64,000 nucleotides of DNA. Source: a virus. The notes under the pieces were generated by a model. The model saw only the letters and a list, made by a program, of their open reading frames with translations. It did no database searches and was not told the origin of the DNA. A program made the position numbers and the translations under genes. Positions 2,531 through 43,191 of the stretch are shown here, one piece after another. Position 1 is the first letter of the stretch, and every line of letters starts with the position of its first letter. The DNA is taken from the IMG/VR virus record IMGVR_UViG_3300013126_000014, positions 1 to 64,000 of that record, one strand, 5' to 3'.

Positions 2531-3142
2531 TCATTTTGGTAATTTTTTATTTCGATGTGCCAACGACATACTATTTCTATGTTCGCTACTTTTTGGTTTT
2601 CCTTGCGCAGATTCTGACATCCTTTGTCGTGTTTCAACCGACCGTACTTTCCCTTTATTCGCTTCTGCGATTTTTTTCTTTATTTCATCAGACATTGGTC
2701 CTCGCTTTTTACGTGGTTTAGATAATTTTTCACGTGTTTCATCTGTTATTACTCGGGTTTTCCTTGCTGCTGACATGCGTTGCCGAGTTTGATCTGATAC
2801 TATGCGACCTTGAAGTAGAACATTGCACACTACACGATTCTTTTCAAACACACGACTTGTAATTTTAGTTTCATATCGGTGTGTATGCTTGTTTGTTTTG
2901 CGCATCATTCTCAGCGCATATCTCATACTTTTTTGATGCTCACCTGTTACCATTTTAGTGAGTAGCCAATGACAAATAAAGTGTTCCCTAGCAGATAATT
3001 TAACTATATTATCGTCAGTGTTTCTACCACCGAGTGATTTTGGAATAATATGATGCTGTTCAGTGTACTCTGTGTATATCTTCTTTTTAGAGTCGCTAAT
3101 AATCTTAAAATACCATGTTGTATATTTATTTTCTTTAAACAT
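2531..3142 (-). CDS. HNH homing endonuclease with NUMOD3 repeats
   Basis: A 203-residue free-standing endonuclease. Residues 29-58 contain an HNH core (HHIIPKSLGG, then N and H at about 45-58). The C-terminal half holds at least three NUMOD3-type DNA-binding repeats of the pattern S-E/D-E-T-R-Q-R-M. It is an intergenic insertion between gene 32 and the 635-residue gene, with its own late-type promoter (3171-3178) upstream. Homing enzymes of this kind usually cut an endonuclease-free allele in the flanking gene. No intron or split gene is visible around it. Confidence 0.88.
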   Translation of the reverse strand: MFKENKYTTWYFKIISDSKKKIYTEYTEQHHIIPKSLGGRNTDDNIVKLSAREHFICHWLLTKMVTGEHQKSMRYALRMMRKTNKHTHRYETKITSRVFEKNRVVCNVLLQGRIVSDQTRQRMSAARKTRVITDETREKLSKPRKKRGPMSDEIKKKIAEANKGKVRSVETRQRMSESAQGKPKSSEHRNSMSLAHRNKKLPK

Positions 3143-3262: not shown

Positions 3263-5170
3263 TTACTTTAAGCCTGCTATTCTACGCATTTGTTCAAGAT
3301 CTTCTTTGAATTGTTTGTTATATAATACTAACTCATCTTCACTGTCACCTTTGGTCATTGCTTTCATGCCGCGAGGAATATTTTTAAGTTTGTCCATCAT
3401 ACCCAATTCTTTTGCACCCATACGTTTGAGTTTTTCTGATTTGTTTACGTAGTCCTGTCCCTGCGTCTCTGACAGTGCTTGTTTCATTTCTTCTTTAGTT
3501 TTACCATATTTTGCCTTGAATTCTTCGTCTGTCAGTTCTTCAAGATCTGTGGCTACTTCTTTTACTCTACCTTCATTCATTTCTGGATACTCTACGCCAA
3601 CTTCAAGATATACTTCACGAACCATGTTGCTGATGTCACTTGATCCCAGTTCTTCTATTGGTGCGTGAAAACTTGCCACATCACGTGCGGCATTTAATAT
3701 ACCATCTGGGCCTGCTTTTCTTAATAATGCTGTGTGTTCGCCAATGTTGTTTAGGATTCTACGAACGATTGCTGAGGTAATACTTTCAACTTGTTCGTCA
3801 TTGTAGTCCATTTCATGTACTTCACCATCCATGCTGCCCATTGGGTCAGCATAGGCTCCTTCCATTTGCTCTGGTGGGTAGTTAGAATCGTCGCCCAATT
3901 CGTTTAACAGTTGTTGATAGAGCATTGGTTGATTATTTTCCAACCAAGACATAACTGTAGGGCGGGCATCTTGATTTGGATCTTCTTCTGCCAGAGCTTG
4001 TAGTTCATCAAATAGGTCGTCGGCACCTACGAGATTATATAAGGCAGACGTAGCATTAGCTGCATCAACCCCTAGGGGCACTTCTTCACCCAATAAATCA
4101 AGAAGTTCGTTAATTTCTTCGTCTGTTTGTGCCACAGCCCATGTACCTTCCGATACTGTGTCTGCCCACTGTTCGAACATTTCAGCAAATTTATTTTCTT
4201 TTTTCATTTTATATGCCTTTTGAACGATAGGCAATGCTTCGTCCATGCTGTCTTTGTATACCCGTTTAACAAACCGCTCACGCATTTCGCCTAGATCAAA
4301 CTCGTCTAGTAACACGCTTTCGTTTGCTTGGAAATTTTCTTTACACTTAGTATAGCCTTTACGGCCTCCCATGCGTTTTAATGTGTTGCTTAGTAAACCA
4401 TGATATTCAAATGCGGCTTCTACCATAGCCTGTGTGTCAGCGTCTTCAAATGTTCTACTACGTACACTACTTTTAAAAGGACGAAGTTTACTACATTCTT
4501 CTGCAATACTAGTAATGTACTGTCCAAAATCGTCAGCCAATGAGCCGCCTTCGCTAACATGTCGTGCCATAGCACGACCATAACGCAAACTATTGTAAGG
4601 GAGTTTTAAGCGTTCACCTTCTACAGTTTCTAAATACATAGCTCGAATCTTACGGCTACGGGATCCTCGTTGTTCAGGATCTACACGATCACTATGACGA
4701 ACAATTAACCTAACATCACCATCATTTTCGTAACTACTACGACTCGTTCCATACATACGTCCTTCACCAATGACTTCATCTTTGCTGTAGGTGCTGTCCG
4801 CTTTACTTTGTTGTTCAATGTCCCGATGTTTAAGCGTACCACGTGTAATATCACGAGGTTCAAAACTTAAAAGATTACGTTTAGCAAACTCGCGCAGTTC
4901 ACGTAAAAATGCATACCACTTCTTCTGTTCTTCGTCGCTTAACGAGTGACTGATATTTTTACTAAAATAAACTTTAAGACTAAGTTCATCAATGACACTT
5001 AAGGTAATATTACCGTAGTTTTTGCCATCTACTACATAGTCAAAGTTAAAAAACCGTGCAAGCTCAGGATTTTGTGTGGCTTTAGCGTTTTCGTCGCCTA
5101 AGCTGACATCTTCAAATCTGTCACGAATTTTTTCAAATAAAGCTTCTGATATTTTGTTAATTTCACGCAT
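3263..5170 (-). CDS. Large acidic head-associated protein with C-terminal RRIAGLK
   Basis: A 635-residue protein of unrecognised family, beginning MREINKISEALFEKI. It is acidic, predicted mainly helical, and has no membrane segment or Cys motif. Residues 85-225 are rich in Arg and Ser. The protein ends in RRIAGLK, a tail shared with scaffold gp22 (RRLAGLK) and found internally in two other head-region genes. Together with its place directly downstream of terminase, this suggests a virion or prohead-core protein, possibly packaged with the scaffold. That role is an inference. A late promoter (5178-5185) sits 7 nt before the ATG, leaving almost no leader. Confidence 0.7.
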   Translation of the reverse strand: MREINKISEALFEKIRDRFEDVSLGDENAKATQNPELARFFNFDYVVDGKNYGNITLSVIDELSLKVYFSKNISHSLSDEEQKKWYAFLRELREFAKRNLLSFEPRDITRGTLKHRDIEQQSKADSTYSKDEVIGEGRMYGTSRSSYENDGDVRLIVRHSDRVDPEQRGSRSRKIRAMYLETVEGERLKLPYNSLRYGRAMARHVSEGGSLADDFGQYITSIAEECSKLRPFKSSVRSRTFEDADTQAMVEAAFEYHGLLSNTLKRMGGRKGYTKCKENFQANESVLLDEFDLGEMRERFVKRVYKDSMDEALPIVQKAYKMKKENKFAEMFEQWADTVSEGTWAVAQTDEEINELLDLLGEEVPLGVDAANATSALYNLVGADDLFDELQALAEEDPNQDARPTVMSWLENNQPMLYQQLLNELGDDSNYPPEQMEGAYADPMGSMDGEVHEMDYNDEQVESITSAIVRRILNNIGEHTALLRKAGPDGILNAARDVASFHAPIEELGSSDISNMVREVYLEVGVEYPEMNEGRVKEVATDLEELTDEEFKAKYGKTKEEMKQALSETQGQDYVNKSEKLKRMGAKELGMMDKLKNIPRGMKAMTKGDSEDELVLYNKQFKEDLEQMRRIAGLK

Positions 5171-6765: not shown

Positions 6766-7077
6766 TTAGAATGGTTTCTCGCCGGTCATATATGGCAAGC
6801 TGAACCACAGCCTAAACCATTCCGGACTCCCTGGTTGGATATTGTTATTATTTTGATATTGGATTTTTTCGTTAGCAGTATGACTTACGTTACTAACTTC
6901 TGTTTTAGATACGCTGTTATATCCGGTGTACTCGTTTAACTTTCCCGCATTAGCGTCACTCAACCCAGCAAGGCGTTGGATATCGTGTATTGGGTCAGCA
7001 TCATCTAGTACTGCTTCTGGAATCAGGTCCTCTGCTTTATAGAAGTCTGCTGAGGTTAATTTATTTTGTTTAGACAC
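6766..7077 (-). CDS. Unknown small protein with QRLAGL motif
   Basis: A 103-residue protein of unknown function between gene 17 and the 118-residue gene, overlapping the latter by 8 nt. Residues 33-38 are QRLAGL, the motif shared with gp22 and two other head-region proteins. A polar Asn-rich middle (about 50-80) precedes a conserved-looking aromatic C-terminus (EWFRLWFSLPYMTGEKPF). The lone motif and the position in the packaging cluster suggest a capsid- or scaffold-associated factor. It does not resemble a small terminase, which is found elsewhere. Confidence 0.65.
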   Translation of the reverse strand: MSKQNKLTSADFYKAEDLIPEAVLDDADPIHDIQRLAGLSDANAGKLNEYTGYNSVSKTEVSNVSHTANEKIQYQNNNNIQPGSPEWFRLWFSLPYMTGEKPF

Positions 7078-7426
7078 CGTATTTGTTCTTCTTAGGTTTG
7101 GCAGTAGGACTATTTTTGTTTACATTATCTAGTTCAGCCGATCCACGACTACTGTGTTTTCGTGCTTTAATTCCAAATTCTTTTCGAGCATGATTAATAA
7201 TTTCATTGTCTGCATCACTGTAGCCCACCGTAATAAACTCACTGCCTATAGGGCCTTCTTGATGATCTACTTCGTTTGGACTTTTTGCTAGTGCTACGCC
7301 AAATCTGTAGGCCAAATAGGGATGGTTGTTATTGTCTAAATAAGGATAGCTATCAAGGTTAGAAAGGCTTTGTGTGGTTCCCTTTCTAACCTTGCTGCGC
7401 GATTCAACAATCTCAGTTATTTTCAT
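7070..7426 (-). CDS. Unknown 118-residue phage protein
   Basis: A soluble protein of unknown function. The middle (YPYLDNNNHPYLAYRFGVAL, then SEFITVGYSDADNEII) looks like a folded alpha/beta domain. The last 35 residues are basic and low in complexity (PKKNKYGV at the end). Its ATG touches the TAA of the 615-residue gene, and its 3' end overlaps the 103-residue gene, so the three are co-translated. Context suggests a virion or packaging accessory protein. No family is recognised. Confidence 0.6.
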   Translation of the reverse strand: MKITEIVESRSKVRKGTTQSLSNLDSYPYLDNNNHPYLAYRFGVALAKSPNEVDHQEGPIGSEFITVGYSDADNEIINHARKEFGIKARKHSSRGSAELDNVNKNSPTAKPKKNKYGV

Positions 7427-9273
7427 TATTTTTTAACTTCGCCTAACATATCTTCATATGCTTTCCAAAGTGTTTCTTCCTTAACTGCTAATGGATTAGC
7501 TGCTTTGTTAGCTGTAGCAGGATCTTGTTTTTTGCTACGATTGAGATCTGTACCGCTCGGAACAACTGCATCTACTCCTGCTACTTTTTCTCGCGGCGTG
7601 TTTAAATGTTCAATATCTCGTTCTTCTTCTAATTCTGCTTGTGGCTGTTCTTGCGGAACGGTATTGTCAGTAGGTTGAACTGTCTCTTCTTGTCTATGTT
7701 GAATTCCTGCCAATAGTTGCATCAATGTCACTGCGTCTAAATCATCAGCAGTAAAACTGATGTTAGCATTGATCATTTCGTCTAATTTTTCTTGTGCTTC
7801 TTTAACCGTATATTTCTTACCGTCTACTTCAAATTCTTTAGCACCACTTGCACGTGCCTGTGCTAGTGCTCCTGAGAATTCGTTACCTTCACCCATTTCT
7901 TCTTCTTCAAGATCCATAGTGTCGGGACTTTCTTCTACATTTATTTCGTTGTATACTTCTGTTTCTTCTACTGGTATTCCTGCTAGGCGGGCAATTTCAT
8001 CCAATTCTTGATCTATTCCGCCAACAAATGAATTTTCTGGTGCGTTACACTCTGCGATTTCTTGACAGTAGTGACTGTATGATGTAGCCACATCGCCAAT
8101 AAAGTCCTCGTCAGTCATAATAATATTGCGAGCACGATTTGGTTCAATACCTTGTGCTACCATTTCTTGACGCACTGCTGTCACAAAACTTGAATCAGCT
8201 GTGTTTAGTGTAGGATTCTTTTCAGCTAGAGCTTTACCTACTTTTTCGTAGAAGTAATCTGTTTCTTCCATAACACGGCTTTCTTTAACCATTGCTGGTT
8301 TAGCTTTCTTCATGTTAGGAGCAGAGTTTTTAATTTTACCAGCGTCTTTAAATTCAACGCCTTCTTCTACTTGGCCTTTGTTGTGTGCTTTCCATGCTGT
8401 AGCATAAGCAATACCTTTTTCACGTTTAGTCAGAGCGCCGTCTTTAGCATAGCCTTTCTTAATATGTTTAACCATACGTTCAGCTTTAGCGCCTGGAGGT
8501 GCTACTTCGGCAACTTTCTTATCTAGCATTGGGTGATTAGGATCTGTTTTAGCAAGATGTGCTTGGAAGCTGTCATAGTCTTTACCGGCTTTCTTTGATG
8601 CAGCCACACTTTTTGCTTTTGCTGAATGCTTTTTAAGATCTATTTGTGATTTAGCGATATTGCCCTCATCCAAGTCATCTACTTCTGGACTATCTTTCTG
8701 TGCAGCGCCACCGTAGGCTTTACCAGCAACTTTACGGATTGGCGTGTTACGCTCATCGCGATAACCTTGTTCGTCTTCTTGACGATCTTTAATAGCCTGT
8801 AGACGTTTACGTTTAGCAATAGCATCAGCATCTGGTGCAGCTGGCTCATCGTATTTGCCTTCATCTACTTCGTCATCGCCTTCATCGTTAAAAGCAATCA
8901 TTTCAGCATCATCAGGATCCATGCCTTGTTTAATAAGTTCATGATAGCGATCTAACTTGGCCTCATCACTCATACCCTCGCCTAGTTTCTTGCCTGCGGC
9001 AGCGGCTTTTTGGAATTCGGCTTTACCGTATTTTTTACGGCCAATGGCAGCGGCTACAGCTTCTGGATCTTCAGCACTACCACCTTTCTTAACTGCGGCT
9101 ACTGTTTTCTTAAAGCCCATGTATTTTTCTTCTAAACTTTTTACAGCTTCAGTAATACTACCGCGTGATTCTACGCTTTCGTATACTGGTTCAGTAGTTG
9201 CATTTTCGGTTGGTTTTGTAACTCCTAAAACAGAGCCAATCTTGCCCAAAATATCATAAATGTTGTTGCTCAT
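7426..9273 (-). CDS. Mosaic low-complexity head-region protein
   Basis: A 615-residue protein built of short modules joined by charged linkers. Visible modules include an AIGRKKYGKAEFQKAAA segment near residue 72, a Lys-rich stretch around 205-245, a segment ending GIAYATAWKAHNKG at about 300, ARLAGIP near 425, and SGALAQARASG followed by FEVDGKKYTV near 470-490. Such modules recur, from memory, in large virion-associated proteins of T4-like phages. The lack of one globular core, the ARLAGI motif and the location among packaging genes suggest an internal or prohead-core protein. It lies between the 118- and 209-residue genes with 5 nt or less of spacing. Confidence 0.65.
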   Translation of the reverse strand: MSNNIYDILGKIGSVLGVTKPTENATTEPVYESVESRGSITEAVKSLEEKYMGFKKTVAAVKKGGSAEDPEAVAAAIGRKKYGKAEFQKAAAAGKKLGEGMSDEAKLDRYHELIKQGMDPDDAEMIAFNDEGDDEVDEGKYDEPAAPDADAIAKRKRLQAIKDRQEDEQGYRDERNTPIRKVAGKAYGGAAQKDSPEVDDLDEGNIAKSQIDLKKHSAKAKSVAASKKAGKDYDSFQAHLAKTDPNHPMLDKKVAEVAPPGAKAERMVKHIKKGYAKDGALTKREKGIAYATAWKAHNKGQVEEGVEFKDAGKIKNSAPNMKKAKPAMVKESRVMEETDYFYEKVGKALAEKNPTLNTADSSFVTAVRQEMVAQGIEPNRARNIIMTDEDFIGDVATSYSHYCQEIAECNAPENSFVGGIDQELDEIARLAGIPVEETEVYNEINVEESPDTMDLEEEEMGEGNEFSGALAQARASGAKEFEVDGKKYTVKEAQEKLDEMINANISFTADDLDAVTLMQLLAGIQHRQEETVQPTDNTVPQEQPQAELEEERDIEHLNTPREKVAGVDAVVPSGTDLNRSKKQDPATANKAANPLAVKEETLWKAYEDMLGEVKK

Positions 9274-42096: not shown

Positions 42097-43191
42097 CTAT
42101 TTTAGCCCTGCTAAACGTCTTAGTTCGATAACGTTGCTATCGGATTCGACGTCAGTTTTAGCAGATTTATCACCAGTTACTTCTTTACGGCTTTCAGCAA
42201 TCATCACTTTTTCAGCTTTGGCTGCCGGAGCATTGTTTAGAACAGCTGGTAGATACTTGTCGTATGCAGTTTGTAGTCTTTCTGTCTGCACACCCTCGAG
42301 TAAGCTAGCCATTACAGTTGCTTTCTCTTTATTTAATGTACTTAGCAATCCATTAAGTGTCTCTTTACGAGTAGCACTTTCTGTAATTACTCGAACTTCA
42401 CGTTCTTTAGACTCAACAAGAGCCTCTTTTTCAGCAATTACTTTTTTACTTTCAGCCAATGCTTGGTCTTTATCAGCAATAGTAGCTTGAAGTTTAGCAA
42501 TTTCTTTGTTCTCATTTAAGTGAGTAACAGCAAATTCGCTAGCAAATGCTTCAAATAGGCGACGACCAAACATGTTCTCGCGAGCAGTTTGGATATCTTC
42601 TTTAAGTTGAGCTAGTTCTGTGCCTAGATTCGTTGCTACTGATTCTTTAACAAGTTTAGCACTGCGAGTAATAAAGTCTTGTTGTAATTGAGCTAATTTA
42701 TCTTTAGCTTCAGCTACAAGTTTAACTTTAGTTTCGACTACAGCACGTTTATCTTGTTCAAACTCTTTGATTTCCTCAGCTAGCGCATGGATAACAAATT
42801 TCTCAAGTTTAGCAGTTGCTTCTTGTTGAACTTTGCGATCTACACGTAGTTCTTGGATTTCTTCGGCAAGTTTTTTAACCATAAAGTTATTAAACTTACC
42901 AGCAGATTCGACCATGTGTTGTTTAAACTTCACACGATCTTCTGCTAGAGCTTGTTTCTCTTCGGCGAACTCTTTAAGTTCGGCGGTAAGACTTTCAGTA
43001 ACCATCTTGTCTAGAGCTTCAACCATATTTTGTTTGTCATATTCGTAGCGACGAGCAAACTCTTCACGCAATTCAGCGCGAACAGATTCACGTGCTTCAT
43101 TAACTTGAGTTTCCCATGCTTCTGTAATAGCAGCTTGAGTCTCTTCGTTAATAATGCCACTTTCTAACAATGGTTTGATAGCATCTAACAT
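42097..43191 (-). CDS. 22: gp22 prohead core scaffold
   Basis: A 364-residue, almost wholly coiled-coil, highly charged scaffold (LKEFAEEKQALAEDRVKFKQ, LAESKKVIAEKEALVESKER). The start MLDAIKPLLESGIINEETQ is typical of T4-like gp22 in aquatic phages. The C-terminus is ELRRLAGLK, a motif shared with three other head-region proteins. Stops are TAG TAG TAA in tandem. Its ATG lies in the same frame as gene 21, three sense codons beyond the gene 21 amber stop. AGGAG precedes the ATG, so independent initiation is also expected. The scaffold is degraded by gp21 on maturation. Confidence 0.92.
   Translation of the reverse strand: MLDAIKPLLESGIINEETQAAITEAWETQVNEARESVRAELREEFARRYEYDKQNMVEALDKMVTESLTAELKEFAEEKQALAEDRVKFKQHMVESAGKFNNFMVKKLAEEIQELRVDRKVQQEATAKLEKFVIHALAEEIKEFEQDKRAVVETKVKLVAEAKDKLAQLQQDFITRSAKLVKESVATNLGTELAQLKEDIQTARENMFGRRLFEAFASEFAVTHLNENKEIAKLQATIADKDQALAESKKVIAEKEALVESKEREVRVITESATRKETLNGLLSTLNKEKATVMASLLEGVQTERLQTAYDKYLPAVLNNAPAAKAEKVMIAESRKEVTGDKSAKTDVESDSNVIELRRLAGLK

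Follow-up and report, generated by a model that had tools for sequence, protein, structure and literature searches.

The DNA examined here (the window) is a 64,000-nucleotide stretch, positions 1 to 64,000 of the IMG/VR virus record IMGVR_UViG_3300013126_000014, the whole record being 117,787 bp long. Its subject is a short peptide, here called the tag, which ends both a 635-residue head protein and the scaffold at the gp22 position, and which recurs in other head proteins of large phages.

Tagged genes of the window

An earlier note on this DNA had placed copies of an RRLAGL motif in four proteins, of 635, 103, 615 and 364 residues, all from head or packaging clusters. A scan of all six frames of the 64 kb with the regular expression xR[LIV]AG[LIVM] confirms the four copies, solely in these genes and all on the minus strand (Table 1), and there are no further matches in the full record, so that the total remains four. 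The terL and gp20-23 clusters comprise 13% of the coding residues and contain all four tagged genes, as had been claimed; the probability of this by chance is about 3e-4.

Table 1 Tagged genes, tag copies and neighbouring genes of the window.
Feature	Position	Strand	Remarks
635-residue protein, phrog_13484 (virion structural protein, head and packaging)	3263..5170	-	directly downstream of terL
C-terminal tag of the 635-residue protein, MRRIAGLK + stop	3263..3289	-	kept in 10/10 relatives
Terminase large subunit (terL), 522 residues	5184..6752	-	untagged neighbour
103-residue protein	6766..7077	-	internal tag; relatives keep DPIxDMRRLAGI
Internal tag of the 103-residue protein, HDIQRLAGL	about 6961..6981	-
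615-residue low-complexity mosaic protein	7426..9273	-	two internal copies
Internal copy 1 of the 615-residue protein, LDEIARLAGI	about 7972..7995	-	conserved block QELDEI[AS][RK]LAG[LIV]
Internal copy 2 of the 615-residue protein, LMQLLAGI	7699..7722	-	degenerate; intact in relatives, [MF]RKLAGM
Major capsid protein gp23, PF07068	40890..42062	-	candidate docking partner
364-residue scaffold, gp22 position, phrog_10922	42097..43191	-	coiled coil 16-198 and 221-318, linker 319-355, tail
C-terminal tag of the 364-residue scaffold, LRRLAGLK + stop	42097..42123	-
Prohead protease gp21, PF03420	43201..43839	-	untagged

The 364-residue protein, which ends in VIELRRLAGLK, is encoded between the gp21-type protease and gp23, and is homologous to the annotated scaffolds of phages 121Q, Munch and MIJ3. 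Position, coiled coil and homology all identify it as a gp22-type prohead scaffold. The 635-residue protein matches the phrog_13484 profile with E = 4.8e-18. It ends in DLEQMRRIAGLK, that is in QMRRIAGLK, and its N-terminus, MREINKISE, is similar to the capsid-targeting sequence (CTS) of T4. In a fold search with this protein no relative of solved structure reached E <= 0.001; GNAT-like matches, all weak (E 0.2 or worse), were disregarded, and the viral matches are uncharacterised phage proteins.

The genes for the 615-residue, 103-residue and a further 118-residue protein are located before terL, and gave no useful family match, save for a cyanophage block in the 615-residue protein. This block, at residues of about 255-320 (PPGAKAERMVKHIKKGYAKDG...GIAYATAWK), matches phrog_30733 and is also found in cyanophages of the T4-like type, S-CREM1 and MED4-213 among them. 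The positional equivalents of the 615-residue protein beside terL at two other loci (L449, 841 residues, and L506, 389 residues) have the tag at the C-terminus. Beside the 635-residue gene there is a 203-residue open reading frame (ORF) at 2531-3142 with repeated segments of the type ETRQRMSES, which looks like a putative insertion of the homing-endonuclease type.

Recurrence and conservation of the peptide

In order to survey IMG/VR, DNA patterns for RLAGLK or KLAGLK followed by a stop codon were run alongside permuted patterns of the same composition as controls. RLAGLK with a stop gave at least 120 stretches, against none for the RLGALK control, and a second RLAGLK codon set gave 61. For KLAGLK with a stop there were likewise at least 120 stretches, of which 105 fall in ORFs of at least 60 residues; the KLGALK control gave 34 stretches and 2 such ORFs. 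The survey yielded at least 262 in-frame tagged ORFs (of at least 60 residues), against 2 in the permuted control. Among the matches listed, 218 of the 256 tagged ORFs with readable downstream DNA lie directly before a gp23-type capsid gene, and most of the remaining tagged ORFs encode virion proteins or terL-cluster proteins, or belong to islands of genes with T4-like capsid-targeting sequences at the N-terminus. The proportions of the families are biased, because the patterns fix some codons and the counts are of at least 120 listed stretches; the first RLAGLK pattern favours gp22. The earlier note had interpreted the motif as a signal for docking or core targeting that the scaffold also bears, and the survey supports this. 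It had also named an equal frequency of the motif in non-head proteins as the observation that would speak against such a signal; the survey instead lands on scaffolds, with a remainder that is mostly linked to the head.

A separate count was made in nine genomes (2.3 Mb) for [RK][LIVM]AG[LIVM] no more than four residues from the stop, with 59 permuted orders of the motif as the control. There are 19 proteins with the C-terminal motif, against a permutation mean of 0.58; the highest permuted order, with 13, is the identical motif moved by one residue, and is the sole competitor. For the extended motif there are 39 occurrences, where shuffled proteomes give 4.6, with a maximum of 11. Because relatives among the nine genomes have genes in common, not all of these counts are independent, and counts of families are the safer measure.

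The tail is also kept in relatives that were retrieved using other parts of the proteins, namely in 46 of the 46 gp22 relatives listed which, together with the relatives of the 635-residue protein, makes 56 of 56. Across 64 distinct gp22 sequences R-L-A-G-L is invariant, and the adjoining linker varies in both sequence and length, so that in gp22 the conservation of the tail far exceeds that of the linker beside it, as is to be looked for in a scaffold tail. Relatives of the 615- and 103-residue proteins keep their internal copies amid variable surroundings. In gp22 the tail persists at 30-40% identity, as ELRRLAGIK in PA5oct, DLKRLAGIKK in Atu_ph07 and ELRRLAGIEK in Phosso; Vibrio phage 2.275 has an altered form, RLTKIAGIRK, the tail is degenerate in GAP32, 121Q and XaC1, and it is absent from T4. 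No second tagged protein was found in T4, GAP32 or 121Q, which have no intact gp22 tail, nor in S-CREM1, and the shared tag is missing from all four. The motif of the earlier note is real, although its RRLAGL core was drawn too narrowly: the consensus is roughly [LV]xx[LMI][RK][RK]LAG[LI](K), or about LKRLAGLK. It is C-terminal in most families, and N-terminal or internal in some.

Could a common helical hexapeptide recur in this way by chance? Low-rate internal copies do exist in unrelated enzymes. However, the permutation counts, the retention of the tail in all relatives and the permuted controls in IMG/VR exclude chance, with 19 C-terminal copies where 0.58 are expected and 262 tagged ORFs against 2, and this explanation is already refuted. 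The recurrence is conserved.

It is also very improbable that the tail is a DNA-level module, spread between genes by recombination and with no common function. The phages concerned are mosaic, and their gp22 copies agree in codons, including an invariant rare GGG, which would fit such a module. Against this, the codons differ between genes (CTT GCT GGG TTG, CTA GCA GGA ATA, AAA CTA TCT GGT), which implies that it is the peptide that is conserved and not the DNA; moreover the tail is conserved beside variable linkers, and is found on scaffolds in three different contexts.

As to the codons themselves, those of the tag in gp22 relatives are near-constant (CGT TTA GCA GGG CTA), with the rare GGG in all 51 distinct sequences. 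The same constancy is seen at eight other four- to six-fold codon sites in gp22. On account of these sites, and of the differing codons in other genes, a DNA-level element in the gp22 tail was rejected.

Scaffolds, cargo and the proposed docking site

Three types of scaffold carry the tag. Among the matches listed, gp23 is directly downstream of the tagged gene in 164 of 164 cases for the gp22 family, in 51 of 51 for a second family of about 340-500 residues, and in 3 of 3 for a fusion of a gp21-type protease to a coiled coil. The tag is at the end of a coiled-coil scaffold gene beside the capsid gene, where a scaffold tail belongs. In an hhalign comparison of the gp22 family with the second family, the last 50 residues alone align. 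In Flavobacterium phage immuto the second-family gene has the prohead protease on one side and Gp23 on the other; in Microcystis phage Mel-JY01 it immediately precedes the capsid gene. A fusion of the third type is found at locus L550 (2803-5127), where a 774-residue protein with a gp21-type protease and a long coiled coil has an RLAGLK end and is encoded directly upstream of gp23.

AlphaFold predicts for the 364-residue scaffold long helices at 16-198 and 221-318, then a low-confidence linker (319-355) and, in the tail, a helix of four residues. For the 635-residue protein it predicts a mixed N-terminal domain, a low-confidence stretch at 568-614, and a helix at 611-631 that runs into the tag. 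The confidence at the tails is low, and the models support, without proving, an arrangement of a tether followed by a peptide.

Proteins other than scaffolds are also tagged. They include phrog_13484 (also in Phosso, 976 residues), a virion structural protein of phrog_13138 (212 residues), amidoligases of PF12224 (1065 and 1182 residues), a 373-residue protein, terL-cluster proteins, and several small families. In PA5oct, gp281 has an N-terminal copy. At locus L591 (810-4611), two adjacent proteins have the motif at their N-termini as well as at their C-termini. A CTS-like N-terminus and a C-terminal tag occur together in the same proteins with an odds ratio of 88 (p = 4e-10, 13 genomes); counted by independent tagged family, 3 of 5 have a CTS-like N-terminus, against a background of 2%. 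The tagged amidoligase of genomes G001 and G003 lies within an island of CTS-like genes.

These islands are runs of adjacent genes with T4-CTS-like starts, such as MRAREFILE, MRFKEILNE and MRAIEFIIE, at 206495-218043 in G001 (locus L115 and its neighbours) and at 159708-174713 in G003. They are a candidate bank of head-packaged proteins.

We consider it likely that the motif is a docking peptide of the scaffold which other head proteins have copied in order to enter the prohead; this is the likeliest explanation because in three scaffold types the tag is part of the scaffold itself. The motif would be a short helical peptide, primarily the scaffold's own. A gp22-type scaffold would consist of a long coiled coil, a flexible tether of about 40 residues, and the tail [LV]xx[LMI][RK][RK]LAGLK, which probably holds the inner side of the gp23 shell and would less likely hold the core or the portal. 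The 635-, 615- and 103-residue proteins, and elsewhere the amidoligase and several structural proteins, would have this peptide as well, C-terminally or within disordered parts, dock at the site of the scaffold tail, and so be incorporated into the prohead along with the scaffold. The peptide would then be sufficient for targeting, and an LKRLAGLK-like peptide is probably an address label for the growing head.

There are several points that weigh against this. Some tagged proteins, such as the amidoligase, are of unproven head location, and the tag is not in every case terminal. Some of the pattern matches in IMG/VR are probably due to chance, for example an integrase-like ORF. According to the mass-spectrometry notes in the PA5oct record, 4 of 5 motif occurrences, in 3 proteins, were detected; the notes point in the expected direction, but with detected proteins making up 43% of the coding residues they fall short of significance (p = 0.12), and they were rejected as proof. 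Finally, there is no L/IxE site, the type cut by gp21, near the tag in the amidoligase, the 373-residue protein and other cargo-like families.

The distribution of L/IxE sites is relevant to a different role for the motif, in which the prohead protease gp21 would dock on it and so find the scaffold and head proteins that are to be cut during maturation. T4 scaffolds are substrates of gp21 and are cut by it (PMC9026906). Every member of the gp22 family and of the second scaffold family has a site close to its tail, as does the protease fusion, against a background of 55%. This role is disfavoured because the fusion holds the protease and the tag in one chain, and the tag is nevertheless at its far C-terminus. 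In addition, several tagged proteins are without a nearby site, and there is no tag on gp23, presumably the chief substrate of the protease, as it is in T4. We therefore regard protease docking as improbable. For the same reason, that the site is missing in several tagged families, a removable tag beside a gp21 site was rejected as a general rule.

A more serious alternative, although still a rather unlikely one, is that the peptide binds the coiled coil of the core, or the portal, and not the shell, with attachment to the core as for the internal proteins of T4 through their N-terminal CTS. The CTS propeptides of T4 do work through core proteins (PMC9026906), three of the tagged genes flank terL, and the scaffold gene is near the portal gene. 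However, the peptide is borne by scaffolds of three types, always beside gp23, which is a better fit to a contact between scaffold and shell; the scaffold tail may still bind to itself.

Relation to known capsid signals

The CTS of T4 is N-terminal, binds the core and is cleaved by gp21 (PMC9026906). The tag resembles the CTS of IPI-III and Alt in being a short, transferable-looking peptide common to unrelated internal head proteins, and some tagged proteins here also start in a CTS-like manner. It differs in that the CTS (about 10-20 residues, cleaved after L/IxE) is located at the extreme N-terminus, whereas the tag is mostly C-terminal with the consensus LKRLAGLK; it is also absent from T4, and doubles as a scaffold tail.

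In P22, 80alpha, phi29, HK97 and D3, one end of the scaffold touches the coat (PMC12749128). The tail described here is similar to those scaffold ends (the delta domain of HK97 and D3 among them) in being a terminal helical segment behind a long or flexible region, with its gene beside the capsid gene. Unlike them, it is also found on non-scaffold proteins and on three scaffold types, and its coat binding is putative. The C-terminal segments of other head proteins have also been suspected of prohead targeting: T4 Alt has a C-terminal propeptide of unexplained role (PMC5694885), and for the C-terminal propeptide of the SPN3US protease gp245 targeting has been proposed (PMC7411985). The tag is like these in position, but no shared consensus motif has been described for them (PMC7411985, PMC5694885).

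The tagged protease-scaffold fusion at L550 is reminiscent, compared by description only, of a system outside the phages. In the protease/scaffold pair of herpesviruses, a protease-scaffold fusion has a coat-binding C-terminus. The phage tag differs in spreading well beyond the protease and the scaffold.

No description of the motif was found in the full-text literature searched. What appears to be new is a second, mainly C-terminal capsid address beside the known N-terminal CTS. On balance we favour, by a small degree, the wider proposal that a single portable peptide, the scaffold tail, serves many large T4-like phages as a general address for the inside of the prohead, alongside the N-terminal CTS, and that it is carried C-terminally, N-terminally or internally by at least a dozen unrelated proteins. 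Most head proteins of jumbo and T4-like phages are unknown, and loading signals are known just for the N-terminal CTS of T4. If the proposal is true, head cargo would be readable from sequence alone, including enzymes such as the amidoligase. A tag common to scaffold and cargo would help in studying how scaffolds hold on to gp23-type shells, and would provide a second loading signal for putting proteins into phage capsids.
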